A stretch of DNA of 64,000 nucleotides, taken from NCBI RefSeq assembly GCF_030388245.1, contig NZ_CP098364.1, forward strand, positions 98,910 to 162,909. The letters are read 5' to 3'. Source of the DNA: Paracoccus sp. TOH. Lineage in GTDB: Bacteria; Pseudomonadota; Alphaproteobacteria; Rhodobacterales; Rhodobacteraceae. Positions within the stretch are counted from its first letter, which is position 1. Every line of letters begins with the position of its first letter. The position numbers were made by a program, and so were the translations under genes. Below, piece by piece: positions 43,031 through 59,057 of this stretch. The notes beneath the pieces were generated by a model that worked only from the letters and a program-made list of their open reading frames with translations, ran no database searches and had not been told where the DNA came from.

Positions 43031-43714
43031 CTAAAGATCCTGATCCAGCAGGCCATCGGGGTCGGCGATGATGATCTCGCCGCGCCCGGCGCGCAGGATG
43101 CCGTCCTGCCGCATCGCCGACAGCGCCCGGCTGACCGCCTCGCGGTTGGCGCCGATCTGCGCGGCGATCTCGGCATGGGTGGGGAAATCCCGCAGCACCG
43201 CGCCGGGGCGCAGGCAGTCGGCCTGGACCGCGCGGCGCAGGACGAAGGCCTTGACGCGATCCGGCACCGACAGGGATGTCAGCTGGCACATCCGCTCGGT
43301 CAGGTCGCGCACCCGATGCGTCAGCCCGGCCAGAACCCGGTCGCGGAACAGGCCGCTGTCCCGGATCAGCTCGCGGAAGACGGCGGCCGGCATGATCGCC
43401 AGCTCTGCCGCCGTGCGCGCATAGACGCAGAGCGAGCGCGGCACCCCGTCCAGCGCGGTCAGCTCGCCGAAATAATTCCCCTCGGACATCGACGTGAAGA
43501 TGATCTCGCGCCCGTCCCGGGTCCAATAGACGGCCAGCAGCTGGCCGCGGGCCAGGAAATGCACGTCGGCCTGTTCCTCGTCGCGGTCGATGACGATGGC
43601 GCCGCTGGCGAAATGCTGCCAGCGCAACGACCGGGCCGCGCGCTGGCGAACGGCGTCCTCCAGCCCCGAAAGCAGCGGAAACTGCCCGATATCCCGCGCC
43701 GAATCCGGGGTCAT
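43031..43714 (-). CDS. Crp/Fnr family cAMP-type transcriptional regulator
   Basis: A 227-aa regulator. The cyclic-nucleotide domain has the phosphate-binding cassette YFGELTALDGVPRSLC (E84, R93, S94), the residues that bind cAMP in Crp. The N-terminus has no Fnr-type cysteine cluster. The DNA-binding helix is THAEIAAQIGANREAVSRALSAM. The ATG overlaps the stop of the cyclase gene (ATGA), so receptor and cyclase are translated together. This makes a self-contained cAMP signalling unit likely. Its DNA targets are unknown. Confidence 0.9.
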   Translation of the reverse strand: MTPDSARDIGQFPLLSGLEDAVRQRAARSLRWQHFASGAIVIDRDEEQADVHFLARGQLLAVYWTRDGREIIFTSMSEGNYFGELTALDGVPRSLCVYARTAAELAIMPAAVFRELIRDSGLFRDRVLAGLTHRVRDLTERMCQLTSLSVPDRVKAFVLRRAVQADCLRPGAVLRDFPTHAEIAAQIGANREAVSRALSAMRQDGILRAGRGEIIIADPDGLLDQDL

Positions 43715-46704
43715 TCCGGCATCCAGCCGATGCGCTCGCCCGCCCGTTCGGCATGGGCCAGCCACAGATGCGCCCGCATCGCGCGGGCCTGGCCCCATGC
43801 CTGCGCCAGGCCGGCGCGCGCCGCCTGCGGCTGGCCCTGCGCGGCCAGAAGCTGCGCCTCGGCGATCAGGGCCGGGGCCAGGAACTGCGCCTCTCCGGTC
43901 TGGGCCAGGCGGGCCTTCAGCCCCGGCAGATAGGCCTGGGCGCGGGCCGGCTCGCCGGCCTTGACCAGTTCCTCGATCACCATGGCCTCGAACAGCGACT
44001 GCCAGGCGATGAAATTCGTCCGCCGCCAGCCCTCGAGCCCGTCGATCATCGCCGCGATGCCCTCGGTGCGGGTCGCCGGCTGCCGGGTCAGCGCCCAGCC
44101 CTGCGCGAAGCCGGCCATGGCCAGGAATTCCGGGAAATGATGGGTGCGGGCCAGGGCTTCGGCCTGTTTCGCATGGGCGATGGTGGTTTCGGGATCGCCG
44201 CGGAACATCTCGGTCAGGAACATCGCCAGCAGGGAAAAGCCGCGGGCATGGGCGATGCCCAGGGCCCGGCCCAGTTCGAGCGCGCGGCTGGCGAAATCCT
44301 CGGCCGCCTCGAACTCCGCCGCGACCGAGGCGGTCAGCCCGGAATAGAACAGGCTGAACACCCCGAAATCCTTGAGATATTTGGAAAAGAGCGGCGCGTG
44401 CCTCTCGGGGCGGTAAAGCGCGATGGTGCGGGCCAGATGATGGCGCGCCCGCCCCAGATCGCCCTTGTGCCAGGCCACCAGACCGGCCAGCGTGTGCCCG
44501 GCCAGCTGCGCGCCCTCGCCTTCGTTGGGCAGGGCCAGCACCGTCCGGGCGGTGGTTTGCGCCGCGTCCAGCCGGCAGCAGGCCCAGTCGTGCAGGCCGG
44601 AATTGTAGTAAAGATGCGCGCGATCCTGGTTCAGGCCCAGCTCGCGCATCAGGTCCATGCTGCGCCGCTGGGCATCGCCGAAGGCGGCATTGCCCGGCCC
44701 GCCCAGGATCATCTGCAACGGCCCCTCGAGACTGTAGAGCGCCAGCTCCTGCTGGCGGCGCTCGTGGTTGTCGGTCAGGTGGGGCAGCAGGGCGAAGGCG
44801 CGGCCCAGATGGTCGCGCGCCTCTTGCAGGGCGCCGACGCGGACCGAGGCCAGCGTGGCATTGACCAGATAGCGCAGCGCCCGCGCGGGCTGGCCGCCAT
44901 TCTCGAAATGCAGGGCCAGGAAATGCGCCGGCACCTCGGGCCAGCGCGTCTCGATCACCGCGGCCAGATCGGCATGCAGCCGCCGGCGCAGATCGGTGCC
45001 GAGATTGCCGTAGATCGCCTCGCGCACCAGGTCATGCGCGAAGGCCATGCCCAGGATGCCGGCGCGTTCCGCGGCCAGCTTTTCCGCCACCAGCCGGTCG
45101 ACATGGCGGCGGATGCCGTCGCCGCTTTCGCCCAGAAGCGCGGCGATGATCGTCGGCTCGAAATGCGGGCCCATGACGGCGGCGGCCTGGGCGAAGCGGC
45201 GGGTGCGCTCGGGCAGCCGGCCCAGGCTTTCCTCGATCACGTCGAGCAGGTCCAGCGGCAGGTCGGGCGCGCCGAAATCGGCCTTCTCCTTGCGCAGCGC
45301 GTAATCGGCGAAGGCGGTGAGGTAAAGCGGCACGCCGCGCGCCTTGTCCTGCACCCATCGGACCATGTCGAGGTCGTCGGCGCGCGCGCTCAGCAGGTTG
45401 CGGATCAGGTCCTGGGACTGGGCGCGCGACAGCGGCTGCAGGCGCAGCGCCAGATCGGCCGCCAGCACCGGCTGGTCCTCGGGGCCCGCGGTGCGCTGGC
45501 TGAACAGCATCAGGACCGGCCGGTCCCGCAGCACCGCCTGGAAGCCGGCCAGGAATTCGACCGAGCTGGGGTCGAGCCAATGCGCATCCTCGACCACCAC
45601 GATCAGCGCCGGCGAGACGCCCTGCAGATCAAGGATGCGACTGGTCAACTGGTCGCAAAGCCAGCGCCGCAGCAGCACCGGATCGGCGCTGAGCTGGCGG
45701 TCGGCGTCGGAATGCGCGTCAAGCAGCACCAGCAGGTCGTCGATGGCCGTGCCCTGCAGGCCCCAGACCGCGCTGAACATCTGCCGCAGCTTCGCCTCGC
45801 GCCGGTGCTCGTCATCGTCCAGCACCACGCCGGCGACCCACAGCAGATGCGCCTTGATCGGGTGGAAGTCGCCGCCCCTTTCGTCGCGGCGGCCGTTCAG
45901 CACCAGCCGCTGACAGGCCTGTGCCAGCGGCGAATGGGCGAATTCCTCAAGCAGCCGGGTCTTGCCGAAGCCGGCCTCGCCCATGACGGCGACGGTCTGG
46001 CCCCGGCCCGCCATCGCCTCGGCCAGGGCCGATTCCAGCGCCGCGCTTTCGGCCACGCGGCCGACCAGACCCGGGCGGGCGGGGTTTGCGGCGCGTTCGC
46101 CGCGCAACTCGCCCGCCTCCCAGCAGCTGACCGCCTCGGCAAAGCCCTTGAGCGGCTGGTCCGGCAGGGCGCGGAACGCGAACAGCCCTTGCGCGCCGCG
46201 CCGGCTTTCGGCGCAGACCAGCACGCTGCCCGGCGGCGCGACCGCCTGCAGCCGGGCCGCAAGATTGATGCAATTGCCGACCGCGCGCACCCCGGCGGCG
46301 CTGGCCCCGTCGCTGAACAGCGCCAGCCCCGAGGCGATGCCGATGCGGACATTGGCGGGAAAGGCCGATCCGGGCCGCTGGATCGCCCCGGCGATGCGCA
46401 GCCCGGCCGCGATCGCCGCCGCCGCGCGCGCCATCTCCTCGTGGCCGCGATGGAACAGGCACATCACGCCGTCGCCCAGATATTGCACCACCTCGCCGCC
46501 AAACAGCCGGACATGCGCCGTGACCAGGTTGTGAAACGCCCGCAGCGCGGCGTTGTAGCGTTCCGGCCCCAGCGTGCCGATCAGCTCGGCCGAGCCGACA
46601 AGATCGACGAACATGGCCGAGACCGGGCGGTATTCCGACCAGTCGGCAGCTTCGTCACCCGCGGCGAAAGGCGCCGCGCCGGCCTGCTCCATGCTAATGG
46701 ACAT
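43711..46704 (-). CDS. Class III adenylate/guanylate cyclase fused to an AAA ATPase and TPR-like region
   Basis: A 997-aa soluble protein. The cyclase domain (about residues 25-200) has metal aspartates D34 (MFVDLVGSAE) and D78 (VVQYLGDGVMCLF) and the transition-state pair N147/R151 (NCINLAARLQ). At the position where many adenylyl cyclases have the base-selecting Lys there is Q74, so nucleotide choice is not certain. An AAA/STAND ATPase follows (Walker A GEAGFGKT at 242-249, LIVVVEDAHWLD), then a long helical TPR-like C-terminus. It overlaps the cytochrome c gene upstream and the Crp gene downstream. It probably integrates a signal through the STAND/TPR part. Confidence 0.88.
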   Translation of the reverse strand: MSISMEQAGAAPFAAGDEAADWSEYRPVSAMFVDLVGSAELIGTLGPERYNAALRAFHNLVTAHVRLFGGEVVQYLGDGVMCLFHRGHEEMARAAAAIAAGLRIAGAIQRPGSAFPANVRIGIASGLALFSDGASAAGVRAVGNCINLAARLQAVAPPGSVLVCAESRRGAQGLFAFRALPDQPLKGFAEAVSCWEAGELRGERAANPARPGLVGRVAESAALESALAEAMAGRGQTVAVMGEAGFGKTRLLEEFAHSPLAQACQRLVLNGRRDERGGDFHPIKAHLLWVAGVVLDDDEHRREAKLRQMFSAVWGLQGTAIDDLLVLLDAHSDADRQLSADPVLLRRWLCDQLTSRILDLQGVSPALIVVVEDAHWLDPSSVEFLAGFQAVLRDRPVLMLFSQRTAGPEDQPVLAADLALRLQPLSRAQSQDLIRNLLSARADDLDMVRWVQDKARGVPLYLTAFADYALRKEKADFGAPDLPLDLLDVIEESLGRLPERTRRFAQAAAVMGPHFEPTIIAALLGESGDGIRRHVDRLVAEKLAAERAGILGMAFAHDLVREAIYGNLGTDLRRRLHADLAAVIETRWPEVPAHFLALHFENGGQPARALRYLVNATLASVRVGALQEARDHLGRAFALLPHLTDNHERRQQELALYSLEGPLQMILGGPGNAAFGDAQRRSMDLMRELGLNQDRAHLYYNSGLHDWACCRLDAAQTTARTVLALPNEGEGAQLAGHTLAGLVAWHKGDLGRARHHLARTIALYRPERHAPLFSKYLKDFGVFSLFYSGLTASVAAEFEAAEDFASRALELGRALGIAHARGFSLLAMFLTEMFRGDPETTIAHAKQAEALARTHHFPEFLAMAGFAQGWALTRQPATRTEGIAAMIDGLEGWRRTNFIAWQSLFEAMVIEELVKAGEPARAQAYLPGLKARLAQTGEAQFLAPALIAEAQLLAAQGQPQAARAGLAQAWGQARAMRAHLWLAHAERAGERIGWMPE

Positions 46705-48070
46705 CGACGGTCTCTTGCTCCAGCCGCGCGTTTCCGGCGACCTCGTTATAGGCCGAAACCGCGAACATCAGCGCCATGTCGTAATCCAGCGCCACGATCC
46801 CGGCGCTTCTGGTCATCGGCTCGGATCCGGGCCGGTTCTGGAACCAGCGCATCCAGTCGGGCGAGCCGGGCTCGTACAGCAGGAAGGGCAGGTCGTCGCG
46901 GGGAAAGCTGCGATTGGGCGAGGGGTAGAGATTGGCCGCCCGCGGGAACTCGGCCGTGCCGTGGCAGCTCTGGCAGGACGAGGCGTTGACATGCTGGTCG
47001 TTCACATAGCGTTCGCCGCTGGGCAGGATGACGTTGTGCCGGCTCGAGACATCCATCGGCCCGGAAAGGCGCCCGCCCCAGCCGAAGGTCTCGCGGGTAA
47101 AGGCGGGGGCCGCCGGGTTGATCCAGCTTTGCCGGATCGCGGCCCGGCCGAAGCGGTCGGCCCTGGGTCCGGTGACCTCCGGGTCGTTGCCCCATTGCAG
47201 GCCCAGCGGCACGAAGCGTTCCCATGCCGAAAGGCCGGGCGCGTCCTTGTCATAGACGAAGACCGCGAACACCCAGCCGCTGCCCGGCGCGGCGGCGCTG
47301 TCCTTGACGCGGACGGCCATCTGCAGCGGGCGCACCGGCAGGACATGCGGGCGCAGGTTCGGCCCGCCCGCCAGCTGGTCCTCGGTCGTGGGGCGGAAGA
47401 CATGCCAGACCGAGGTGTTTTCCAGGACGGGCCAGTCCTCGGGCGTGTTGGTCACCGCCTCGACCTTGGTCACGACCGAGCCTTCGGGGAAGCTGACCGC
47501 CTTCAGGTTCGGGGCATAGAGATTGGCCCAGACCCGCCCCAGCATCGCGGCGGCCGGCGCATTGTAATAGATCACCGCATGGTTCTGCACCGGGCCTTGC
47601 GGCGCCTGGCCTTCGGGGAAGGTCACGGCCGGCATGATCTGTCCGGAATAGGTGTTCATCAGCGCCTCGCGCCCCGAGGTCGGGTCCGTCACCCCGCCCG
47701 CGACCGTTCCTTCGCCGCTCCAGACCATGTCGTACCAGCCGGCCTTGACCGGATCCCAGTCGTCGGGACTGTCCACCAGCGTCCCCAGCGTCAGGCCCAG
47801 ATAGGCCTTGAGGCGGCGGGCATATTCGGGCGCGGTCTCCTGCGACAGCGGGCCGGCGGTCTCGCGGAAGGGCCAGCCCTTCTGCTCGGGCTGCTCGGGA
47901 TAGTCCAGGTTCGCCAGCAGGAAGCGCCCCCGCCAGTTGTCCGACGGGTAAAGCCCGTTGTTCGACGCCAGCGGGTCCTGCGCCCATGCGGCCCCCGACA
48001 GGGCGATCCATGCCGCCGCGGCGACGAGGACAGGATAGTCTGCAAGCCTGCAGGAGAATGACTGGCGCAT
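46694..48070 (-). CDS. Periplasmic monoheme cytochrome c protein
   Basis: A 458-aa exported protein with signal peptide (ADYPVLVAAAAWIALSGAAWA). It has one heme-binding motif, CQSCH at residues 366-370, far from the N-terminus. The first 340 residues form a large Trp/Tyr-rich domain I do not recognise (NWRGRFLLANLDYPEQPEQ, WHVFRPTTEDQL, WERFVPLGLQWGNDPEV). GGGAG precedes ATG 48070, and the frame upstream is a shadow. Its end overlaps the cyclase gene by 11 bp. A periplasmic redox or substrate-oxidising role is inferred, with the heme as electron outlet. Confidence 0.82.
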   Translation of the reverse strand: MRQSFSCRLADYPVLVAAAAWIALSGAAWAQDPLASNNGLYPSDNWRGRFLLANLDYPEQPEQKGWPFRETAGPLSQETAPEYARRLKAYLGLTLGTLVDSPDDWDPVKAGWYDMVWSGEGTVAGGVTDPTSGREALMNTYSGQIMPAVTFPEGQAPQGPVQNHAVIYYNAPAAAMLGRVWANLYAPNLKAVSFPEGSVVTKVEAVTNTPEDWPVLENTSVWHVFRPTTEDQLAGGPNLRPHVLPVRPLQMAVRVKDSAAAPGSGWVFAVFVYDKDAPGLSAWERFVPLGLQWGNDPEVTGPRADRFGRAAIRQSWINPAAPAFTRETFGWGGRLSGPMDVSSRHNVILPSGERYVNDQHVNASSCQSCHGTAEFPRAANLYPSPNRSFPRDDLPFLLYEPGSPDWMRWFQNRPGSEPMTRSAGIVALDYDMALMFAVSAYNEVAGNARLEQETVDVH

Positions 48071-48394
48071 CAGAACGACTCCCGAGCAACGGCGGCGGGC
48101 GGTGAAACGCCCCGGATCGCCAGGCGCGCCCGGCCCTGGGACCGGTGGGTCCGTTCGGGATGACTGGCCCATGCGATTTGTTATTCTAGTAACTTACGCC
48201 GGCCGCGCCTGTAAACCTAGCCCATAGGGCTGTCGTCCGGCGATCGCGGCCGCGATGCGGTGCGCGCGGCCGCCGTGACCCCGCCGCCCCGGCACGAGGC
48301 GGCATGGCGCCCGCCCCCGACAGCCCCGATGCCGCCTTGCGCAAGACCTGATACGCTGAACCCTCGCATCCCGGACCCACGAAAGGAGCCCGAC
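48071..48394. other. Divergent promoter region of the cytochrome/cyclase operon and the pirin gene
   Basis: A gap of 324 bp with no gene. A short AT-rich patch at 48178-48196 (TTTGTTATTCTAGTAACTT) includes an imperfect GTTA...TAAC dyad and is the best promoter or operator candidate for the leftward operon. The part nearer the pirin gene is GC-rich with no clear elements except its ribosome site AAAGGAG. Confidence 0.4.
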
Positions 48395-49448: not shown

Positions 49449-50177
49449 TCAGGTCGCGGGGCCGTTGCGGTGCCCGGTCTCGCGCCCTGAACCGCCGGTT
49501 GCGGAAGCGCCGATCAGCTGATCCTTCAGGCTGACCGAGGAGACCGGCGGCAGGTCGAAATTCAGCCCCGCCTCCAGATGCCGCAGGTGTTCGTCGGTCA
49601 GGCGCAGCAGCAACGCCTCGTCCCGCGCCATCAGGGCATCGGCGATCCCGATATGGTCGTCGCAATTCGCGCAGGAATGCCCGGCGCTGGGATACATGCC
49701 CAGGATCAGGGTGCTGCGCATGGTCAGTTCGGCCAGGAATCGTTCCAGCACCCGATTGCCGGAAAGCCGCGCCAGATACATGTGGAACTGCTGCGACAGG
49801 CGCAGTTCGGTCGGCTTGTCCCGGCGGGCCCGCGCCTCGGCCTCGGCGGTGATATTGGCGCGCAGATAGGCGCCATCCTCGTCGCTGACCCGGGCGACGG
49901 CCTGCCGGGCGATGGTGCGCTCGATGGCGCGGCGGGCCTGGAAGACCTCGCGCGCCTCTTGCGCCGAAGGGGTGACGACGAAGGCGCCGCGATTGGGGCG
50001 CAGCTCGACCACCTGCTTGGCGGCCAGCGAGGCCAGCGCGCGGCGGACATTGGCGCGGTTGCAGTTGAACAGCTCGCTCAGCGCCTGTTCGCCCAGCTTC
50101 GCCCCAGCGGGCAGGCGCTGTTCGGAAATCGCGTTCAGGACCGCGTCGACGATCTGGCTTTCGGGCTGGGCGTCCAT
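49449..50177 (-). CDS. GntR family transcriptional regulator (FadR/FCD subfamily)
   Basis: A 242-aa regulator: winged helix with SQIVDAVLNAISEQRLPAGAKLGEQALSELFNCNRANVRRALASLAAKQVVELRPNRGAFVV, and an FCD all-helical ligand domain with metal-type residues (HMYLARLSGNRVLERF, HSCANCDDHIGIADALMARD). The start at 50177 gives normal length; the upstream frame runs into the operator region. It is divergent from the racemase/NCS1 permease operon and should respond to its substrate. Confidence 0.9.
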   Translation of the reverse strand: MDAQPESQIVDAVLNAISEQRLPAGAKLGEQALSELFNCNRANVRRALASLAAKQVVELRPNRGAFVVTPSAQEAREVFQARRAIERTIARQAVARVSDEDGAYLRANITAEAEARARRDKPTELRLSQQFHMYLARLSGNRVLERFLAELTMRSTLILGMYPSAGHSCANCDDHIGIADALMARDEALLLRLTDEHLRHLEAGLNFDLPPVSSVSLKDQLIGASATGGSGRETGHRNGPAT

Positions 50178-50271
50178 CGGTTCTGGTCTTCTTTCTGATC
50201 GACCTTCGGAAATTACCGGCAAATCCCGGGCCAGGCAACCACCCCACAGAATCGTTGACTTGATGACAATC

Positions 50272-50294
50272 ATTGTTAACAATCTTTGTTAACA
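50272..50294. promoter_or_regulatory. Tandem GTTAAC palindromes, candidate GntR operators
   Basis: ATTGTTAACAAT (50272-50283) is a perfect 12-bp palindrome. A second copy of its core, TGTTAACA (50287-50294), follows 13 bp centre to centre. They lie between the divergent GntR and racemase genes, and the second copy abuts the ribosome site GGAGG at 50300. Position would allow direct repression of the racemase operon. Confidence 0.65.
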
Positions 50295-50309
50295 TGAATG
50301 GAGGTAGTG

Positions 50310-51008
50310 GTGGAAATCCTGGTCGTCAACCCGAACTCGACCCAGACAATGACCGACAAGATCGTCGAGGCCGCGCGCGCGGCGGCCGGTCCCGGCACGG
50401 TGATCCAGGGCGCCACCGCCGCCGGATCGCCCGCCAGCATCGAGGGCCATTACGATGAGGCGATGTCGCTGCCCGGCCTGCTGGCCCGGGTCCGCGAGGC
50501 CGAGGCGCAGGGCATCGACGGCATCGTCGTCGCCTGTTTCGACGACCCGGGCATCGCCGCCTGCCGCGAACTGGCCAGCGGCCCGGTGCTGGGCATCTGC
50601 GAGGCGGCGGTGAAGGCGGCCAGCATGCTGGCGACCTCGTTCTCGGTCGTCACCACGCTGCCGCGCTCGGTCCCGGTGATCGAGCATCTGATCCACGGCT
50701 ACGGCCTGTCGCATCAATGCCGCCGCGTGCGCTCGGCGGCGATCCCGGTTCTGGCGCTGGAGGAGCCCGGCTCGAACGCGCGCATCAAGGTCCGCGACGA
50801 AATCCTGTGCGCCATCCGCGAGGACCGCTGCGAGGCCGTGGTTCTGGGCTGCGCCGGCATGGCCGATCTGACCGCCTGGCTCAGCGAGGAAACCGGCATT
50901 CCGGTGATCGACGGCGTCAGCGTCGCGACCCGCATGATCGAGGCGCTGGTGGGCGCAGGGCTGAAGACCAGCAAGATCAACGCCTACGCTTTCCCCAACC
51001 AGAAATAG
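50310..51008 (+). CDS. Hydantoin/Asp-Glu racemase family protein
   Basis: A cytoplasmic 232-aa enzyme of the aspartate/glutamate/hydantoin racemase superfamily. It begins MEILVVNPNSTQTMTDKIVEAA, the usual substrate-phosphate or carboxylate loop. Both catalytic cysteines are present: C76 in VVACFDDPG and C181 in VVLGCAGMADL. The GTG at 50310 is chosen because GGAGG lies 5 nt before it; the in-frame ATG at 50298 overlaps the ribosome site. The next gene is an NCS1 permease, so hydantoin, allantoin or a related ureide is the likely substrate. Confidence 0.9.
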   Translation: MEILVVNPNSTQTMTDKIVEAARAAAGPGTVIQGATAAGSPASIEGHYDEAMSLPGLLARVREAEAQGIDGIVVACFDDPGIAACRELASGPVLGICEAAVKAASMLATSFSVVTTLPRSVPVIEHLIHGYGLSHQCRRVRSAAIPVLALEEPGSNARIKVRDEILCAIREDRCEAVVLGCAGMADLTAWLSEETGIPVIDGVSVATRMIEALVGAGLKTSKINAYAFPNQK

Positions 51009-51033: not shown

Positions 51034-52392
51034 ATGACAATGACAACCCAGGAGGCGGCGCCCGACAGCGCCGTGATCGAGCACAAGGCCGTGGGCGAGG
51101 AAAGCCTGGCCCCGCAGCAGGCCCGGATCATGGACCCCTGGTCCTATCTGTTCGCCTGGCTGGGCGGCTGCGTCTCGATCGGCACCTTCACCATCGGCTC
51201 GGGGCTGGTGGGAACGCTGAACCTGCTGCAGACCTTCGTGGCCATCGCCATCGGCTGCACGGTGATCGGCATCGCGCTGATGATCAACGGCCAGGCCGGG
51301 CACAAATACGGCATTCCCTTCATGGTGCAGGCGCGCTCCGCCTTCGGCTTCACCGGCACCCGGATCCCGGCGCTGGTGCGTTCGGTCCCGGCCATCGTCT
51401 GGTTCGGCTTCCAAAGCTGGATCGGCGCCGGGGCGCTGAACCTCGTTTCCGACACGCTGTTCGGCTATTCCAACATCTGGGTGTTCTTCATCGGCTTCCA
51501 GGCCCTGCAGATCGGCCTGTCGGTGCTGGGCTTCCACGGCATCAAATGGCTGGAGAACATCGGCTCGGTCTTCATCATCGGCTCGCTGATCTACATGTTC
51601 TTCAGCGTCATCAACAAATACGGCGACGAGATCAGCGCCAACCTGATCAATGTCGAGGGCACCTGGGGCGCGCCCTTCTGGGGCGGCACCATGCTGTTTT
51701 TGGGCATCTATTCGACGATGATGCTGAACGTCTCGGACTATTCGCGCGAATTGCGCAAGGATGTCGGGCCGGTGCGGCAGATCGCGATCTATGCCAACTC
51801 GATCCTGCCGGCGACGCTGTTCATGGGCCTGATCGGGCTGATGGTCTCGGGCGCGACGGGCGAGGTCGATCCGATCAAGGTGTTTTCCAGCGCCGTCGAC
51901 AACAAGCTGCTGCTGGTGGTGACGCTGCTGTTCATCGCCTTCGCGCAGGTCACCACGAACATCCTCAACAACGTCGTGCCGCCGGCCTATGCGCTGATGG
52001 ACGTGTTCAAGATCAACTTCAAGACCTCGGCGGTGATCGTCGGCCTGCTGGCCTTCGGCACCTTCCCCTGGGAACTGGTCAAGGACGAATCGGCAGCCGG
52101 GCTGAACCTGTTCATCCGCACCTATTCCGCCTTCCTGGGCCCGATCTTCGCCATCCTGGTGGTGGATTACTTCATCCTGCGCAAGCAAGAGCTGAACCTG
52201 GACAAGCTCTATGATCCCGAAGGGCCCTACAAGGGCGTGAACATGGCCGCCGTCATCGCCATGGCCGTCGGCGTAGTCTTTGCGCTGATCTTCTCGGGCA
52301 TCTCGTGGTATGCCAGCCTGCTGCCCGCCGGGATCCTCTATTACCTGCTGATGCAGCGCCTGCCCTCGGCGCAGCGCTTCCGGGAGAACTGA
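51034..52392 (+). CDS. NCS1 family purine/cytosine/allantoin/hydantoin permease
   Basis: A membrane transporter of 452 aa with twelve helices. NCS1 features include MDPWSYLFAWLGGCVSIGTFTIGSGL (helix 1), GQAGHKYGIPFMVQARSAFGFTGTRIPALVRSVPAIVWFGFQSWIGAGAL (helix 3 substrate region) and LNVSDYSRELRKDVG. This family includes the sodium-coupled benzylhydantoin carrier Mhp1 and allantoin permeases. It lies between two racemase-family genes, 25 bp after one and 3 bp before the other. Confidence 0.92.
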   Translation: MTMTTQEAAPDSAVIEHKAVGEESLAPQQARIMDPWSYLFAWLGGCVSIGTFTIGSGLVGTLNLLQTFVAIAIGCTVIGIALMINGQAGHKYGIPFMVQARSAFGFTGTRIPALVRSVPAIVWFGFQSWIGAGALNLVSDTLFGYSNIWVFFIGFQALQIGLSVLGFHGIKWLENIGSVFIIGSLIYMFFSVINKYGDEISANLINVEGTWGAPFWGGTMLFLGIYSTMMLNVSDYSRELRKDVGPVRQIAIYANSILPATLFMGLIGLMVSGATGEVDPIKVFSSAVDNKLLLVVTLLFIAFAQVTTNILNNVVPPAYALMDVFKINFKTSAVIVGLLAFGTFPWELVKDESAAGLNLFIRTYSAFLGPIFAILVVDYFILRKQELNLDKLYDPEGPYKGVNMAAVIAMAVGVVFALIFSGISWYASLLPAGILYYLLMQRLPSAQRFREN

Positions 52393-52395
52393 GCC

Positions 52396-53184
52396 ATGAC
52401 CATCACCATCACCGCCCGCGCCCGGCACTGGGCCATGGCCGCCGGTTGCAGCCTGGGGCTGCTGTCGGGCCCGGCCGCCGCCCAGGATACGGCCCAGGAT
52501 GTGGCCCAGAACCCCGGCCGGATCATCGTGCTGATCAACCCGAACTCGAACGAAGCGGCGACGCAATCCATGGCCGGGCTGGCCCAGGCCGCGATCGGGG
52601 ATGCCGCCAAGGTCGAGGGGCGCAGCAATGCCGGCGCCCCGGCGCTGCTGACCACGCCCGAGGACATGGCCAATGCGGTCCCCGGCGTGGTCGCCATCGG
52701 CACCGAGGCGGCCGCCGACCCGCGCGTCGCGGCGCTGATCGTCTCGGCCTTCAGCGATCCCGGCCTGCCGGAGCTGCGCGCCGCGGTGGAAATCCCGGTC
52801 TTCGGCATCGGCGAGGAGGTGTTTCACGAGGCCGCGCGCGACGGCCGGCCCTTTGGCATCGTGACGGTGACGCCGGACGAGAAACTGGTCGAATCCTTCC
52901 GCCAGAAGGCGGCCGCGCTTGGCTACGAGGCGCAATATCGCGGCGTCCGCGTGACGCCGGGCGATCCGACCGAACTGGTGCAGGATCCCGCCCGGCTGGA
53001 CGCCGCGCTGGCCGAGGCGGTCGGGCAATCGACCGGCAAGGACGGCGCCGAGGCGGTGATCATGGGCGGCGGCCCGCTTTCGGCCTCGGCCGTCCGGTTG
53101 CAGCCGCAATTCGACCAGCCGTTGGTGGTCGCGGTCACCGCCGCCGCCCGCGCCGCCGCGAAGCAGGTCGCAAGGGCCGACTGA
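52396..53184 (+). CDS. Exported Asp/Glu/hydantoin racemase homologue lacking both catalytic cysteines
   Basis: A 262-aa protein with a clear signal peptide (HWAMAAGCSLGLLSGPAAAQ) followed by the racemase fold (GRIIVLINPNSNEAATQSMAGLAQAA). Against the cytoplasmic paralogue, VVACFDDPG becomes LIVSAFSDPG (A118 for Cys) and VVLGCAGM becomes VIMGGGPL (G225 for Cys). The two residues that abstract and donate protons are both gone. The fold is otherwise complete, so this is not a decayed gene. A periplasmic ligand-binding or delivery role beside the NCS1 permease is inferred. Family membership is firm; function is not. Confidence 0.85.
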   Translation: MTITITARARHWAMAAGCSLGLLSGPAAAQDTAQDVAQNPGRIIVLINPNSNEAATQSMAGLAQAAIGDAAKVEGRSNAGAPALLTTPEDMANAVPGVVAIGTEAAADPRVAALIVSAFSDPGLPELRAAVEIPVFGIGEEVFHEAARDGRPFGIVTVTPDEKLVESFRQKAAALGYEAQYRGVRVTPGDPTELVQDPARLDAALAEAVGQSTGKDGAEAVIMGGGPLSASAVRLQPQFDQPLVVAVTAAARAAAKQVARAD

Positions 53185-53266: not shown

Positions 53267-53671
53267 TCAGCCTTCCGGCGGCGGCGCGACCATGCCGGCC
53301 TGCGCCACGGCCTTGCGGTCGAAACTGAAGGTGGCGCTGCACCCGGCATCCCGGGCCGCAAGCACGATCATGTGGTCCGAAAAGCCCGCGCCGCCCTGCC
53401 GATAGCGCTCGACCGCAAGCCCGACCCGGTCCGCGGCCTCGACGACGATCTCGGGCGCGGCCAGCAGCCCGTCCAGCGCCGCGGCAATGTCCTGCCGGGG
53501 CAGGTCATAGGCCCGTTCCAGAACCCAGACGATCTCGACCAGCACCTCGCGGCACAGATAGCCGGGGCTGTCCGCCGTCAGGCGGGCGAACAGGGCGCTG
53601 GCCTGCGGGAACTGCGCCGGGTCGTCCTGCGTCAGGAAGCGCAGGACGACATTGGTATCCAGCGCGATCAC
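53267..53671 (-). CDS. vapC: PIN-domain toxin (VapC family ribonuclease)
   Basis: A 134-aa PIN protein with acidic active-site residues at D5 (MIALDTNVVLRFL), E in CREVLVEIVW, and D in GFSDHMIVLAA, plus ATFSFDRKAV. VapC toxins cleave RNA, often initiator tRNA. Its start overlaps the end of the AbrB-type antitoxin gene by 4 bp, the usual toxin-antitoxin coupling. Confidence 0.9.
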   Translation of the reverse strand: MIALDTNVVLRFLTQDDPAQFPQASALFARLTADSPGYLCREVLVEIVWVLERAYDLPRQDIAAALDGLLAAPEIVVEAADRVGLAVERYRQGGAGFSDHMIVLAARDAGCSATFSFDRKAVAQAGMVAPPPEG

Positions 53672-53907
53672 CGGTCTTGCGCGCCAGCGGCGATGGCTTG
53701 CTCCATCTCCTCCAGCGATACCGGGCGCTGGCCCTCGCGGCGCAGCATCCCGGCCAGCTGGGCGACCGGGCGGGTCCGCATCAGCCGCACCTGCCCATCG
53801 TCCAGGATCACGTAGCGCAACCGGTCCCCCGGCCCCAGCGCCAGCGCCTGCCGGACGGATTTCGGCAAGGTGGTCTGGCCCTTGATGGTGACCGTCGATT
53901 CGGACAT
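53668..53907 (-). CDS. vapB: AbrB/MazE-type antitoxin (VapB)
   Basis: A 79-aa swapped-hairpin DNA-binding protein: MSESTVTIKGQTTLPKSVRQALALGPGDRLRYVILDDGQVRLM is the SpoVT/AbrB domain. The C-terminal tail (GQRPVSLEEMEQAIAAGA) should bind the toxin. The start at 53907 gives normal length and has a purine-rich site upstream. It leads the leftward vapBC pair. Confidence 0.9.
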   Translation of the reverse strand: MSESTVTIKGQTTLPKSVRQALALGPGDRLRYVILDDGQVRLMRTRPVAQLAGMLRREGQRPVSLEEMEQAIAAGAQDR

Positions 53908-53980
53908 CTCGCCCCCCAATGCGTTTTTGCGTTTCGCATTACCATATGGGCATTCGCATGGGTTTGGCAAGCGGCGCCGG

Positions 53981-55513
53981 CTAAAGCACCGCGCCGATGC
54001 GCCAGGGCACGAATTCCGCGTCGCCATAGCCGAAGATCTCGGATTTGCTGCGCGCGCCCGAGGCGGTGTCGAGGATCTGGCCATAGATCTCCTCGCCCAT
54101 CTCCTGCAGCGAGACCGCGCCTTCGGCGACCTTGCCGCAGTCGATGTCCATGTCGCCGCGCATCGCCCGCCACAGCGCCGTGTTCGAGGCGAGCTTCAGC
54201 GACGGCACCGGATGGGCGCCGAAGCAGGAGCCGCGCCCGGTGGTGAAGGCGATGACATTGGCGCCCGCCGCCACCTGCCCGGTGGCCGCGACCGGATCAT
54301 AGCCGGGGCTGTCCATGTAGACCAGGCCGGGGCCGCGGATCGGCTCGGCATAGCCATGCACGGCCGACAGCGGCGCCAGCCCGGCCTTAGCCACCGCGCC
54401 CAGCGATTTCTCCAGGATGGTGGTGATGCCGCCGCGCTTGTTGCCGGGGCTGGGATTGTTGTCCAGGCTGGCGCCGTTGGCGCGGGTGTAGTCTTCCCAC
54501 CAGCGGATCATCGTCCGCAGCCGCTGGCCGTCCGCGGCGCTGGCGCGGGCGATCAGCAGATGCTCGGCGCCATAGATCTCGGGCGTTTCCGACAGGATCG
54601 AGGTGCCGCCCGCCGCGACCAGCAGATCCGAGGCGACGCCAAGCGCCGGATTGGCGGTGATGCCGGAAAACCCGTCCGAGCCGCCGCATTGCATCCCCAG
54701 CGTCAGCCCGGAAACCGGCAGGGTCCGGCGGCGGTCGGCATCGGCGCGGGCGGCGATGGGGGCAAGCCGCTCCAGCGCGCGGCGCACCGCCTCGGCCGAG
54801 CCGCCCACCTCCTGGATGTTGAAGCTGGCATGCCGCTGGCGCGTCTCGTCGTCGCGCCGGTAGAGGGTCAGCTGGTTGACCTCGCATCCCAGGCCGACCA
54901 GCAGCACGCCGCCGAAATTCGGATGGTCGCGATAGCCCCTGAGCACGCGCACCAGCAGGGCGAAGCCCTCGCCCGCCGTGGCGATGCCGCAGCCCTGGTC
55001 GTGGACGATGGGCACGAAGCCGTCCAGGTTGGGGAATTGCGGCAGAAGCCGGGCATTCGCCGCGCGCGCGATGGCGTTGCAGACGGTGGACGAGCAGTTG
55101 ACCGAGGCGATGATGCCGATGAAGTTGCGCGTCCCGACCCGGCCGTCGCGGCGCGAAAACCCCTGGAAGCTGCGCCTGTCGGGGGGCGCGGGCAGCCGTC
55201 CGGCCTGGCCGGCGGCGGCCCCCCGGCCCGGCACGCCCATCCCGGCGTTCTGGACATGCACATGCCGGCCGGGCGCGATGGCGGCGGTGGCCTCGCCCAT
55301 GACCTGGCCGTATTTGATGATCGGATCGCCCGGCGCGTGCGGGCGCAGCGCGAACTTGTGCCCGGCGGGAACCGGTTCGGCAAGCCGGACGCCCAGTTGG
55401 GTTTCGCCCGGCTCCAGCGCCCGCAGGGCGATGCCGACGCTGTCGCCGGGGGAAAGCAGCAGGGCGGCGGGACGGTCGGCCATGGCAGGGTCAGGCATCA
55501 AACGGTCAGGCAT
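53981..55513 (-). CDS. uxaA: Altronate dehydratase family protein (UxaA type)
   Basis: Altronate dehydratases convert D-altronate to 2-keto-3-deoxygluconate in galacturonate breakdown, with an iron centre. The 510-aa protein has the N-terminal SAF domain (SVGIALRALEPGETQLGVRLAEPVPAGHKFALR, GQVMGEATAAIAPGRHVHVQNAG) and a catalytic part starting GFSRRDGRVGTRNFIGIIASVNCSSTVCN. It has HDQGCGI, GMQCGGSDGFSGITANPALG and FTTGRGSCFG. The ATG overlaps the stop of the oxidoreductase gene upstream by 8 bp. It is the last gene of the leftward uronate operon. Confidence 0.92.
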   Translation of the reverse strand: MPDRLMPDPAMADRPAALLLSPGDSVGIALRALEPGETQLGVRLAEPVPAGHKFALRPHAPGDPIIKYGQVMGEATAAIAPGRHVHVQNAGMGVPGRGAAAGQAGRLPAPPDRRSFQGFSRRDGRVGTRNFIGIIASVNCSSTVCNAIARAANARLLPQFPNLDGFVPIVHDQGCGIATAGEGFALLVRVLRGYRDHPNFGGVLLVGLGCEVNQLTLYRRDDETRQRHASFNIQEVGGSAEAVRRALERLAPIAARADADRRRTLPVSGLTLGMQCGGSDGFSGITANPALGVASDLLVAAGGTSILSETPEIYGAEHLLIARASAADGQRLRTMIRWWEDYTRANGASLDNNPSPGNKRGGITTILEKSLGAVAKAGLAPLSAVHGYAEPIRGPGLVYMDSPGYDPVAATGQVAAGANVIAFTTGRGSCFGAHPVPSLKLASNTALWRAMRGDMDIDCGKVAEGAVSLQEMGEEIYGQILDTASGARSKSEIFGYGDAEFVPWRIGAVL

Positions 55514-56933
55514 GGACAAGGCCCTCGGCCGCGGCCCGCGCCCCCCGCCGGATCAGCACCGCCAGCGCCTTGGTCAGCGCGGCGGCAAAGCCGGCATCGT
55601 CGCGCAGGGCGGGCGGAAACACCTCGGCCAGGGCCAGGAAGCCGCGCACTGTCGCGGCCGGATCGCCGGTCCACAGCGCCGCCAGGCGCGGGGCAAGCGG
55701 GTCGCGGACCTCGATCGGCAACCCCTGCTCGTCCCGGCCCGAGACGTAGCGCATCCAGGCCGCGACGGCCAGGGTCAGGCCCGGCACCGCCCGTCCGGCC
55801 GCACGGGATTCGGCGATGGTGCCCAGGATGCGCTGCGGCAGCTTCTGGCTGCCGTCCATGGCGATCTGCCAGGTCCGGTGCCGGATCGCCGGATTGGCAT
55901 AGCGGGCGGCCAGGGCATCGGCATAGGCCGCCAGATCCTCGCCCGGGGGCGGGGTCAGCGCCGGGATGATCTCGTCGCGCCACAGCCGGCGCGCGAAACC
56001 GGCAAGGACCGGATCGGCCATGCTATCCGCGATCGTCTGGTGCCCCGCCAGATAGCCCAGATAGGCCAGGCTGGAATGGGTGCCGTTCAGCATCCGCAGC
56101 TTCATGTGCTCATGGGGCGTCACGTCGGCGACCAGCTGCGCGCCTGCCGTCTCGAAGGCCGGGCGCGGGCCGCGGAACCGGTCCTCGATCACCCATTGCC
56201 GGAAGGGTTCGTGCATCACCGGCGCCGCGTCGCGATAGCCGGCGGCGGCCTCCAGCCGGTCCAGGTCGGCGGGCATGGTCGCGGGCACGATGCGATCCAC
56301 CATGGTCGAGGGGAAGGCCGCTTCGGCGGCGATCCAGCCCGCCAGCGCGGGGTCGATCAGCCCGGCCAGGTCCAGCACCACGCCGCGCAGGACGCGGCCG
56401 TTTTCCGGCAGGTTGTCGCAGCTGAGCACCGTGAAGGGCGGCAGTCCCGCCGCCCGGCGCAGGGCCAGGGCGCGGACCAGGAAGCCCGGCGCGGATTGTG
56501 GCAGCGGGTTCGCCAGGTCATGCAGGATGCGGGGATGGTCGCGGTTCAGCCGGCCGGTGGCGGGTTCGTGGCAATAGCCCTTTTCCGTCACCGTCAGGCT
56601 GACGATATGCGTGCCCGGCGCGGCCATGGCGTCCAGCACCGCCTGCGGATCCTCGGGCGCGACCAGCACGTCGCGCAGCACCGTCACCACCTGCGGCCTT
56701 TCCCCCTCGGGCGCCAGTTCCAGCGCGGTATAGGCCCAGCCCTGCGGGCGCAGCCGGTCGCGGGTGTCCGGCGATTGCAGCGAAACGCCGATGACGCCCC
56801 AGCCGCCCGCCTCGGCCACATAGATCGCGCCATGGGCGCGAAAGAACGCCCCCAGACCCAGATGGACGATGCCCGCCGGCGCCGCGGTCGGGGCGCGATA
56901 CAGCCTATCGGGCAAGCCAGCCTCCATCGACAT
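55506..56933 (-). CDS. uxuB: Mannitol dehydrogenase family oxidoreductase (fructuronate/tagaturonate reductase type)
   Basis: A 475-aa long-chain polyol dehydrogenase: GIVHLGLGAFFRAHGAIYV (NAD fold), SLTVTEKGYCHEPATGRLN, VLSCDNLPENG and KLRMLNGTHSSLAYLGYLAG with the catalytic lysine. The family includes UxuB (fructuronate reductase, to mannonate) and UxaB (tagaturonate reductase, to altronate). Sequence motifs look more UxuB-like, but the adjacent altronate dehydratase argues for a tagaturonate role, so the symbol is tentative. It overlaps both neighbours. Confidence 0.85.
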   Translation of the reverse strand: MSMEAGLPDRLYRAPTAAPAGIVHLGLGAFFRAHGAIYVAEAGGWGVIGVSLQSPDTRDRLRPQGWAYTALELAPEGERPQVVTVLRDVLVAPEDPQAVLDAMAAPGTHIVSLTVTEKGYCHEPATGRLNRDHPRILHDLANPLPQSAPGFLVRALALRRAAGLPPFTVLSCDNLPENGRVLRGVVLDLAGLIDPALAGWIAAEAAFPSTMVDRIVPATMPADLDRLEAAAGYRDAAPVMHEPFRQWVIEDRFRGPRPAFETAGAQLVADVTPHEHMKLRMLNGTHSSLAYLGYLAGHQTIADSMADPVLAGFARRLWRDEIIPALTPPPGEDLAAYADALAARYANPAIRHRTWQIAMDGSQKLPQRILGTIAESRAAGRAVPGLTLAVAAWMRYVSGRDEQGLPIEVRDPLAPRLAALWTGDPAATVRGFLALAEVFPPALRDDAGFAAALTKALAVLIRRGARAAAEGLVHA

Positions 56934-57630
56934 TCAGCACCGCGCCGTTGACATAGTCCGAGGCCGGCGCGGCCAGGAACACCGCGGTCTGGCCGATATC
57001 CTCGGGCCGGCCCCAGCGCCCGGCCGGAATGCGCCCGAGGATCGCGGCCGAGCGGTCGGGATCGTCGCGCAGCGCCCGGGTGTTGTCGGTCTCGATATAG
57101 CCCGGGGCGATGGCGTTGACGTTCAGCCCCCGCGCCGCCCATTCGTTCGCCATCAGCCTGGTCAGACCGGCCACGCCATGCTTGCTGGCGGTATAGGACG
57201 GCACCCGGATGCCGCCCTGAAAGGACAGCAGCGAGGCGATGTTGACGATCTTGCCCCGCCCGCGCGGCAGGGCGGCGCGGGCGAAGGCCTGGCAGGTGAA
57301 GAACAGCGCCTTCAGGTTCACGTCGATCACCGCGTCCCAGTCGGCCTCGGTGAAATCCACCGCATCGGCGCGGCGGATGATGCCGGCATTGTTCACCAGG
57401 ATGTCGATGCGCCCGGATGCAAAGACATCGCGCGCCGCCATCGGGTCGCTGAAATCCAGCCGCATCTGCCGCCCGCCCCCCATCAGCGCCAGCGTCTCGT
57501 CGCAGTCGCGGCGGCCGGCGGCGATGACCTCGGCCCCGGCCCGGGCCATGGCGACGGCGATGGCCTGCCCGATGCCGGTATTGGCGCCCGTCACCAGCGC
57601 CACCTGGCCTTGCAGCGAAAACGGGTTCAC
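56905..57630 (-). CDS. kduD: 2-Dehydro-3-deoxy-D-gluconate 5-dehydrogenase-type SDR (KduD)
   Basis: A 241-aa short-chain dehydrogenase: NAD site TGANTGIGQAIAVAMARAG, NNAGIIRRADAVDFTEADWDAVIDVNLKALFFTCQA, serine in NIASLLSFQGG and the catalytic YTASKHG. The IIRRADAVDF and LSFQGGIRVPSYTASKHGVAGLTR stretches are characteristic of KduD, which reduces 2,5-diketo-3-deoxygluconate to 2-keto-3-deoxygluconate. It overlaps kduI by 4 bp and uxuB by 29 bp. Confidence 0.92.
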   Translation of the reverse strand: MNPFSLQGQVALVTGANTGIGQAIAVAMARAGAEVIAAGRRDCDETLALMGGGRQMRLDFSDPMAARDVFASGRIDILVNNAGIIRRADAVDFTEADWDAVIDVNLKALFFTCQAFARAALPRGRGKIVNIASLLSFQGGIRVPSYTASKHGVAGLTRLMANEWAARGLNVNAIAPGYIETDNTRALRDDPDRSAAILGRIPAGRWGRPEDIGQTAVFLAAPASDYVNGAVLNVDGGWLAR

Positions 57631-58451
57631 CGCAGCGCCTCCGGCTGGACGAAATCCATGTCGGTATAATCGACGTTGTCGCCGGCCATCGCCCAGATGA
57701 AGCCATAGCCGCCGATGCCGGCGCCGGAATGGATCGACCAGGGCGGCGAGATCACCGCCTGTTCATTGGCGACGAAGATGTGCCGCGTCTCCTGCGGCTC
57801 GCCCATCAGGTGCAGCACCCGGGCCTGCGGCGCCATGCCGTGATAAAGATAGGCCTCCATCCGCCGGTCGTGGACATGGGCGGGCATGGTGTTCCAGACC
57901 GAGCCGTCCTCGAGCGTGGTATAGCCCAGCACCAGCTGGCAGCTTTCCATCACCAGCGGGTGGATGAACTGCCGGATGGTGCGCTTGTTCGAGGTCTCGA
58001 CCGCCCCGGTGGTCATCTGTTTCGCGTCGGCCACCGGGACAAGGCGGCTGGGCAGGGCGCGATGCGCCGGGCAGGAGGCGATGTAGAACCGCCCCGCTCC
58101 GCCGAAGGTCACCGGACCCGAGCCCATGCCCAGATAGAGCACGTCGCCCTGCCCCATCCGCCAGGTTTCGCCCGCGGCCGCGACATGGCCCGGCCCGCCG
58201 ATATTGACGATGCCCATCTCGCGCCGGTCCAGGAAGGTCGCGGTCCGGGTCTCGGCCACCTGGTCCAGCACCAGCTCGGCGCCGCCGGGCACCGCGCCGC
58301 CGACCACGAAGCGGTCGTAATGCGTATAGACCAGCCGGATCCGGCCGTCCCGAAACAGGCCTTCCGCCAGGAAATGCCGGCGCAGGGTTTCGGTGTCCAT
58401 GGTCTTCGCATGGTCCGGGTGGACCGCCTGGCGGGTTTCGACATGGGTCAC
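57627..58451 (-). CDS. kduI: 5-Dehydro-4-deoxy-D-glucuronate isomerase (KduI)
   Basis: A 274-aa cupin-type isomerase of pectin/uronate breakdown. It has the KduI pattern: DTETLRRHFLAEGLFRDGRIRLVYTHYDRFVVGGAVP, FLDRREMGIVNIGGPGHV, NTMPAHVHDRRMEAYLYHGM (zinc ligands), and WSIHSGAGIGGYGFIWAMAGDN. The start is GTG at 58451, with AAAGGA upstream; length then matches E. coli KduI (about 278 aa). It lies 11 bp after kdgF. Confidence 0.92.
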   Translation of the reverse strand: MTHVETRQAVHPDHAKTMDTETLRRHFLAEGLFRDGRIRLVYTHYDRFVVGGAVPGGAELVLDQVAETRTATFLDRREMGIVNIGGPGHVAAAGETWRMGQGDVLYLGMGSGPVTFGGAGRFYIASCPAHRALPSRLVPVADAKQMTTGAVETSNKRTIRQFIHPLVMESCQLVLGYTTLEDGSVWNTMPAHVHDRRMEAYLYHGMAPQARVLHLMGEPQETRHIFVANEQAVISPPWSIHSGAGIGGYGFIWAMAGDNVDYTDMDFVQPEALR

Positions 58452-58462
58452 GATATGTCCTT

Positions 58463-58744
58463 TCACAGAAAATCGTCGCGGCGGGGGGTGAAGCTGTCGA
58501 TCAGCTCGCCGGCTTCCAGGCAGGTGCAGCCATGCACCGCGCCCGAGGGGATGACGAAGGCGTCGCCCGGCCCGACCTCGAACGCGCGGCCGTCCAGGGT
58601 GAAGCGATAGCGCCCCGACCGGACATAGGTCGATTGCACATGCGGGTGGCGGTGCGGCGTGCCCCGGTCGCCCGCCGCGAAGGCGAAGCGGACCACCATC
58701 AGCTCGGGCGCATGGGCCAGCACGGTGCGGACCGGATCGCCCAT
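58463..58744 (-). CDS. kdgF: KdgF-type cupin (unsaturated uronate linearisation)
   Basis: A 93-aa single cupin: TPHRHPHVQSTYVRSGRYRFTLDGRAFEVGPGDAFVIPSGAVHGCTCLEAGELIDSFTPRRDDFL. The HRHPH.Q motif and the S/FxPxRDDFL C-terminus match KdgF, which speeds ring opening of unsaturated galacturonate or mannuronate before KduI acts. The ATG overlaps the stop of the truncated dctM (ATGA). It is the first intact gene of the uronate operon now that the transporter is broken. Confidence 0.88.
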   Translation of the reverse strand: MGDPVRTVLAHAPELMVVRFAFAAGDRGTPHRHPHVQSTYVRSGRYRFTLDGRAFEVGPGDAFVIPSGAVHGCTCLEAGELIDSFTPRRDDFL

Positions 58745-59057
58745 CACTGCCCCCGGAACAGCGCCGGCAGCCACAGCGACAGCGCCGGCACATAGGTCAC
58801 CAGCAACAGCACCGCCAGCCCGGCGGCGTAGAAGGGCCAGACGCTGCGCATCGCCTCCCAGATCGAGATGCGGGCCACGGCGGCGGCGACGAACTGCACC
58901 GGCCCCAGCGGCGGCGTGTTCAGCCCGATGCCCAGGTTCAGGATCATGATGACGCCGAAATGCACCGGATCGACGCCGAAGGCGCTGACCACCGGCAGGA
59001 AGATCGGCGTGGTGATGATGATCAGCGGGCTCATGTCCATGAAGGTGCCCAGCAATC
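58744..59057 (-). pseudogene. Truncated TRAP large permease (dctM) C-terminal fragment
   Basis: About 104 residues remain of a DctM protein: LGTFMDMSPLIIITTPIFLPVVSAFGVDPVHFGVIMILNLGIGLNTPPLGPVQF to the C-terminus, where a full DctM has about 430. The homology stops abruptly at the codons TTG CTG near 59057, and an in-frame TGA and transposase debris follow. The missing part and presumably dctQ and dctP have been lost. The stop still overlaps kdgF (ATGA), so the fragment was once the upstream cistron of the uronate operon. Confidence 0.85.

Follow-up and report, generated by a model that had tools for sequence, protein, structure and literature searches.

The Asp/Glu racemase superfamily has been described through its pair of catalytic cysteines. 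In the allantoin racemase KpAllR these are Cys79 and Cys184, and PMC12661438 names Asn12, Thr118 and Thr119 as residues that hydrogen-bond the substrate. Mutants of two relatives are documented: C75A, C179A and the double mutant of NozR show no detectable isomerisation (PMC10156859), and OpaE C90S/C199S keeps at most 0.3% activity (PMC12661438). Here we analyse a gene in a 64,000-nucleotide stretch of Paracoccus sp. TOH DNA (contig NZ_CP098364.1; the window), which encodes a racemase-fold protein with a predicted signal peptide and with Ala and Gly at the two cysteine positions (A/G). The observation is real, conserved and unusual. An earlier note took the product for a periplasmic protein of ligand binding or delivery; that is a good hypothesis, and it has a single strong rival.

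52396..53184, + strand: exported Cys-free (A/G) Asp/Glu-racemase-fold protein, 262 aa, ATG start (open reading frame, PF01177, alignment, AlphaFold2 model)
52396..52482, + strand: predicted Sec signal peptide, residues 1–29, AAA before Q30 (by eye, hydropathy and kept architecture)
52747..52749, + strand: Ala118 codon, at the position of catalytic Cys79 of KpAllR (alignment)
53068..53070, + strand: Gly225 codon, in the GGGPL signature, at the position of catalytic Cys184 of KpAllR (alignment)

The exported protein and its lost cysteine pair

In a Pfam profile search, residues 44–254 match PF01177 with 138.5 bits against a cut-off of 31, and the AlphaFold2 model shows the full fold at residues 43–261, with low confidence for residues 1–40. 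A score above the gathering threshold together with the two-domain racemase fold places the protein in the PF01177 superfamily by descent. A118 and G225 align not only with the KpAllR cysteines but also with C80 and C185 of a two-Cys racemase encoded nearby (50298–51008), as the earlier note had proposed. The sole Cys of the protein is C18, which lies within the signal peptide; the mature part is Cys-free, and alternative active-site cysteines were rejected as an explanation. Because the pair is essential in NozR and OpaE, ordinary racemase chemistry is not expected here and would be improbable by analogy with these relatives. In the alignment, Asn12, Thr118 and Thr119 of KpAllR map to N50, T157 and V158, so that two of these three substrate contacts are kept.

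The replacement is fixed across a clade. Among 95 distinct family rows (aligned sequences), 63 are A/G, 30 have both cysteines, one has Cys and Gly, and one has Ala and Lys, the last being an overlapping frame that is just 16% identical. Ala and Gly are present in all 36 rows at 50% identity or above (the window's own row counted); the other 27 A/G rows fall below 50%, and two-Cys rows reach at most 33%. Residues N48, N50, A118, D121, P122, T159, L164, L205, G224–L228, P242 and A250 are invariant in 60 A/G rows (the 63 minus L061, L064 and L087_2190), and 66 positions are invariant across 34 rows from several genera. Where A/G rows read GGGPL, the two-Cys group reads GC-[AG]-GM. The fold region lacks any Cys in 33 of the 36 close-clade rows; there, the remaining A/G rows average 2.3 Cys and the two-Cys rows 5.5. 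Chance or an annotation artefact was rejected on the strength of the 36 close rows. The single Cys/Gly relative (L047:2514–3173, − strand) has Cys at the first position and Gly at the second, sits on a very long tree branch and is perhaps an intermediate state.

Signal peptides were called by hydropathy (the mean over a hydrophobic 11-mer) and by eye, and are predictions throughout. The N-terminus, MTITITARARHWAMAAGCSLGLLSGPAAA followed by Q, is of the Sec type. A hydrophobic 11-mer with a mean hydropathy of at least 1.66 precedes the fold in 32 of the 36 close rows, where the architecture is kept and the sequence is little conserved; as a prediction, this speaks against a cytoplasmic location. 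In the other 27 A/G rows the highest pre-fold value is 1.29, wherever upstream sequence could be scored, and several of them begin right at the fold (MILLANPN and similar). The four exceptions among the close rows are L049, where the stretch is absent, L052, where we read it as belonging to a frame that no standard start codon opens, and L061 and L064, whose frames are broken. In L048 and L054, the ATG that takes in the signal peptide sits 45 bp behind an operator-like site, which supports the longer start; a wrong start of the exported protein, which the earlier note had allowed for, is therefore unlikely. The Tsukamurella row (L090) carries a lipobox-like VAGC, and lipobox anchoring is how Gram-positive bacteria retain exported binding proteins.

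The dN/dS of the fold region, measured against four relatives, is 0.20–0.27; the two-Cys racemase gives 0.08–0.09 and the NCS1 permease 0.15–0.18 against three relatives. The gene is maintained by selection, yet it is less constrained than both neighbours. Given this ratio and the 66 invariant positions, a pseudogene was rejected. The frames of the exported gene are broken in Paracoccus cavernae (L061, L064); that species has two cassette copies about 250 kb apart on one contig, both frame-broken, which may be assembly errors.

Linkage to a two-Cys racemase and an NCS1 carrier

50298..51008, + strand: two-Cys racemase (C80/C185) that lacks a signal peptide and most resembles allantoin racemase (profile, KpAllR alignment)
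51034..52392, + strand: NCS1-family permease, NCS1-A (PF02133, 208 bits)
49449..50282, − strand: divergent GntR/FCD regulator (PF00392, PF07729); its true start may be internal to the open reading frame
50260..50295, upstream of 50298, no strand assigned: three operator-like decamers with a 13-bp period, TTGATGACAA (50260), TTGTTAACAA (50273) and TTGTTAACAT (50286)

The two-Cys neighbour is identical to KpAllR at 107 of 215 positions (50%), and the NCBIfam NCS1 and allantoin permease models match NCS1-A below their cut-offs. That this neighbour keeps both cysteines was correctly noted before; the numbering then given, C76/C181, fits a start four codons downstream of the ATG at 50298, from which we count C80 and C185.

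A genome contig search located the exported gene at 31 loci in Paracoccus, Halomonas, Psychrobacter, Zobellella, Oceanimonas, Marinobacterium, Granulosicoccus and an Oceanospirillaceae metagenome-assembled genome; P. denitrificans carries its cassette at L035. The order racemase, NCS1-A, exported gene is found in 23 of them, which bears out the co-encoding claimed earlier. At L046, a contig edge, only NCS1-A stands alongside. Neither racemase nor NCS1-A is nearby in six loci, and all six genomes have NCS1-A elsewhere, at 70–87% identity. At L062 the racemase is present and NCS1 gives way to a Liv-type ABC importer; here and at L083 this importer precedes the two-Cys racemase and the exported protein (L062:444–6678, L083:1395–7687), with operator-like repeats upstream.

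In a sample of 125 Paracoccus genomes, 13 have the exported gene (at least 50% identity; G023, with broken frames, is counted, and G122, with fragments only, is not) and 38 have NCS1-A (E ≤ 1e-150). Eleven of the 13 also have NCS1-A, G091 and G118 being the two that do not, against 27 of the other 112 genomes (Fisher p 3e-5, relatedness ignored). Twelve of the 27 genomes with NCS1-A and no exported gene were read, and in all 12 the two-Cys racemase precedes NCS1-A; since this pair also stands by itself, the exported protein is an optional third component. At L149 a second NCS1-like gene follows the racemase–NCS1-A pair.

No member of the clade at 50% identity or above was found in the family sample (294 genomes besides its own, E ≤ 1e-45), the class sample (384, E ≤ 1e-20) or the phylum sample (397, E ≤ 1e-25); other matches in the class and phylum samples are 34–47% identical. 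Absence from 294 other family genomes, yet presence in gammaproteobacteria, points to horizontal spread. In a maximum-likelihood tree of 90 rows (without the P. cavernae rows L061 and L064 and without L087_2190), the close clade lies on one side of a branch (100/100) and is nested in the A/G side (100/99). The tree suggests that the cysteines were lost first and that export arose once and later, an order to be read with caution because it rests on midpoint rooting and on the long branches that join the A/G and two-Cys sides.

The decamers overlap a promoter-like match at 50255–50283, and TTGTTAACAA with at most one mismatch occurs twice in the window against 0.07 expected. From the position of the sites we infer that the GntR protein binds the palindrome. 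Related sites precede the cassette in several Paracoccus, Psychrobacter and other loci; the three Halomonas loci examined have TTGTGTACAA in place of the TTGTTAACAA-like site. In two Paracoccus genomes, G051 and G078 (3.9 and 4.1 Mb), the exported gene lies about 243 kb from the racemase–NCS1-A pair, and in each the exact palindrome WTTGTTAACAAT is confined to three places. One precedes the pair (in the gap on the GntR side), one the unlinked exported gene and one a further NCS1 gene, NCS1-B. The presumed three-site GntR regulon comprises L048, L054, G051:C22:402040 and G078:C22:225529. The exact palindrome occurs at one place each in G026, G074 and G000, and its reversed-sequence control gives no match in any of the six genomes searched. 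An operator-like TTGTTAACAA also lies upstream of the pair in 11 of the 12 read genomes without the exported gene. NCS1-B of G051 scores 254.9 bits with the allantoin permease model (cut-off 620) and 256.3 bits with the NCS1 model, and distant genes of the NCS1-B type follow the exported gene in 8 of the 31 loci. In the window's own genome the operator search finds a single site cluster and therefore does not help with the substrate.

The likeness of the two-Cys neighbour to KpAllR and the gene content would make allantoin, or some ureide like it, our best guess for that substrate. Among the Halomonas loci, the gene families of PuuD (urate hydroxylase), PuuE (allantoinase) and OHCU decarboxylase occur in six loci each (one representative of each was identified), and a PuuE–OHCU decarboxylase fusion is encoded on another contig of the window's own genome, where the allantoinase AllB profile gives nothing above its cut-off.

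Several other features of the window lie further from the cassette or directly behind it. A PIN-domain protein gene overlaps a PrlF/MazE-type antitoxin gene by 4 bp (53267–54084, − strand), forming a toxin–antitoxin pair directly behind the cassette. A sugar-acid cluster (53981–59055, − strand) encodes proteins of the galactarate/altronate dehydratase and mannitol-dehydrogenase types, an SDR protein, KduI and a cupin; of its TRAP DctM gene the last 103 residues remain (58744–59055), and it looks truncated. On the other side are a protein of 492 aa that combines a signal-like N-terminal region with a haem-type CQSCH motif and has no Pfam or NCBIfam match (46694–48172, − strand), and a guanylate/adenylate cyclase and AAA domain protein adjoining a Crp-type regulator (43031–46704, − strand).

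Possible roles of the exported protein

Linkage, co-occurrence and the operator-like sites shared when the genes are unlinked tie the exported protein to NCS1 uptake; it is inherited, and apparently also switched on, along with importers of nitrogen compounds. From sequence it is shown that both catalytic cysteines are gone, that the pocket is conserved and that the start resembles a signal peptide, besides these connections to the racemase–NCS1 pair. The protein probably captures or prepares nitrogen compounds outside the inner membrane and does not racemise them. Our favoured, still tentative, reading is that it is built on an allantoin-racemase scaffold and assists, in the periplasm, the uptake of ureides (allantoin- or hydantoin-like compounds). 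A ureide would be bound in the periplasm, in the cleft between the two lobes, through the retained NPN and T157 contacts, and would not be racemised, the cysteine acid/base pair being gone. The protein might then raise the effective concentration of the ligand for the NCS1 carrier or hand it over, and in some strains it may serve a Liv-type ABC importer instead. After import, the two-Cys racemase would interconvert the enantiomers for a PuuE-type allantoinase. What had been claimed earlier stands as to predicted export, a Cys-free racemase fold and the NCS1 link, to which operator-like sites shared with the permeases and conservation in several genera are added here; binding and delivery themselves are a hypothesis.

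Several points weigh against a role as uptake accessory. In the pocket, Met17 of KpAllR is replaced by A55 and Thr119 by V158. No requirement for binding proteins is known among NCS1 carriers, and of the 38 Paracoccus genomes with NCS1-A, 27 lack the exported gene (27 of the 112 without the gene; G122 has fragments), for which reason an obligate partnership was rejected in this direction. The Liv-type importers at L083 (G091) and L062 (P. versutus) have a Peripla_BP_6 binding protein of their own. The complete cassette of L049 (Halomonas sp. PR-M31) encodes a version that lacks the signal peptide; upstream of the unlinked copies in Psychrobacter L040 and L041 no operator-like site was seen, and the exact palindrome was not found in the genome of G065. 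The dN/dS is higher than that of the neighbours. A118, G225 and GGGPL are shared with relatives that have no signal peptide; these cannot be periplasmic binding proteins, yet they are Cys-free too, which suggests that the common function of the A/G clade may be something other than periplasmic delivery.

These relatives (L066–L080, L091–L096), a Cys-free A/G, GGGPL branch of PF01177, are annotated as racemases. An Opp-type ABC importer lies near 13 of the 15 Paracoccus A/G loci among them; near the other two, L073 and L080, are genes for an amidohydrolase, for PuuE-like proteins that score under the PuuE cut-off and for a member of the BtpA family. Six of 173 plasmid records with a match were examined: three have an Opp-type importer (L091, L093, L094; L091 also a ureidoglycolate lyase gene) and three a compact RpiR–MFS–A/G set (L092, L095, L096). 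Among the matches listed (30 rows of the 173 records), the product name, where given, reads 'aspartate/glutamate racemase family protein' or 'hydantoin racemase', and such names are probably misleading about activity. A search for the substrate through these relatives found importers dominating, enzymes varying and no single substrate. The whole Cys-free clade is importer-linked, whatever the importer type, which argues for a common function in recognising or converting an imported compound.

This is our chief reason for placing a Cys-independent enzyme almost level with a binding protein. In this explanation, a serious contender, the A/G clade would carry out another reaction (hydrolysis, elimination or ring rearrangement) on a ureide-like compound, and the exported branch would do so before uptake. 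The invariant pocket, including GGGPL and T159, is common to the relatives without signal peptide, and these adjoin importers (the plasmid sets, the Opp-type loci) as a catabolic enzyme would, or amidohydrolase and PuuE-like genes in the remaining two Paracoccus loci. A periplasmic ureide enzyme also has a precedent in the transthyretin-like 5-hydroxyisourate hydrolase (PMC3528726). However, a replacement acid/base pair is not evident, the Cys-dyad mutants characterised in relatives are dead, and the dN/dS exceeds that of the neighbouring racemase.

A periplasmic sensor, in which the pseudo-enzyme binds a ureide and signals to the carrier or a membrane partner, would agree with an accessory, optional gene that has operator-like sites in common with carriers; it is improbable, since beyond racemases, NCS1 genes (plus overlapping frames) and GntR genes every gene family occurs in at most 6 of the 31 loci, and the operator-like sites precede the pair in nearly all read genomes without the exported gene. 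Broken frames in P. cavernae, fragments in G122 and a dN/dS above that of the neighbours would suit a degenerating, functionless paralogue, which is nevertheless very hard to reconcile with the invariant positions, the dN/dS itself and a separate operator-like site where the gene is unlinked (L048, L054). An ordinary racemase with a wrong start or other cysteines is scarcely credible: the GTG codon at V36 might in principle serve as the start of a form that stays in the cytosol, but the mature part is Cys-free, 32 of 36 rows keep a signal-peptide-like start, and the spacing of the ATG in L048 and L054 fits the longer form.

Returning to the uptake accessory and its enzymatic rival, it is a doubtful but conceivable proposal that the protein represents either a new periplasmic ureide receptor for NCS1 carriers, exchangeable onto Liv-type ABC importers, or a branch of the racemase superfamily that is catalytic in the periplasm without cysteines. 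Loss of the two cysteines is fixed throughout a clade that has kept the pocket, and one of its branches apparently left the cytoplasm and became importer-tied. The exported protein is a natural test of the fold without its acid/base pair, and of NCS1 carriers using an exported helper.

Comparison with known systems

No title on an exported Cys-free racemase-fold protein was found among the best-ranked titles of the open-access literature. The closest known proteins are the allantoin racemases HpxA/KpAllR (3QVJ; 3QVK, with Ser at both positions) and P. fluorescens AllR (5LFD, 5LG5); in our alignment the 5LFD chain, native or engineered, reads Gly at the first of the two positions and keeps Cys at the second. 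The exported protein is identical to KpAllR at 50 of 215 positions and differs in lacking both catalytic cysteines, in its signal peptide and in GGGPL for GCGGM. Arylmalonate decarboxylase has Gly74 and one Cys, Cys188, in agreement with the titles of 3IXL and 3IXM. The exported protein has neither Cys and, with G225, differs from this enzyme (2VLB, 3DTV, 3IXM) in the single second-position Cys as well. NozR and OpaE, unlike it, keep and require the dyad.

Like the solute-binding proteins of ABC and TRAP importers, the protein is predicted to be exported, is two-lobed alpha/beta and is encoded beside a transporter; it differs from them in being paired with a secondary carrier, one also found in genomes that lack the protein. 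No profile in Pfam-A for solute-binding proteins of ABC, TRAP or TTT importers matched, PF01177 being the only match; such proteins appear among the Foldseek rows at E about 1e-4 with TM about 0.3 only, and none is among the best 50 VIA-align rows. The periplasmic transthyretin-like 5-hydroxyisourate hydrolase resembles the A/G clade in being a protein of the purine pathway whose clades are partly cytosolic and partly exported, with the same activity in both; it belongs to an unrelated family, is catalytically active, and its periplasmic form is encoded outside purine operons (PMC3528726). The exported protein should be placed neither with the racemase enzymes, whose dyad it lacks, nor with the known binding-protein families, whose profiles do not match it.
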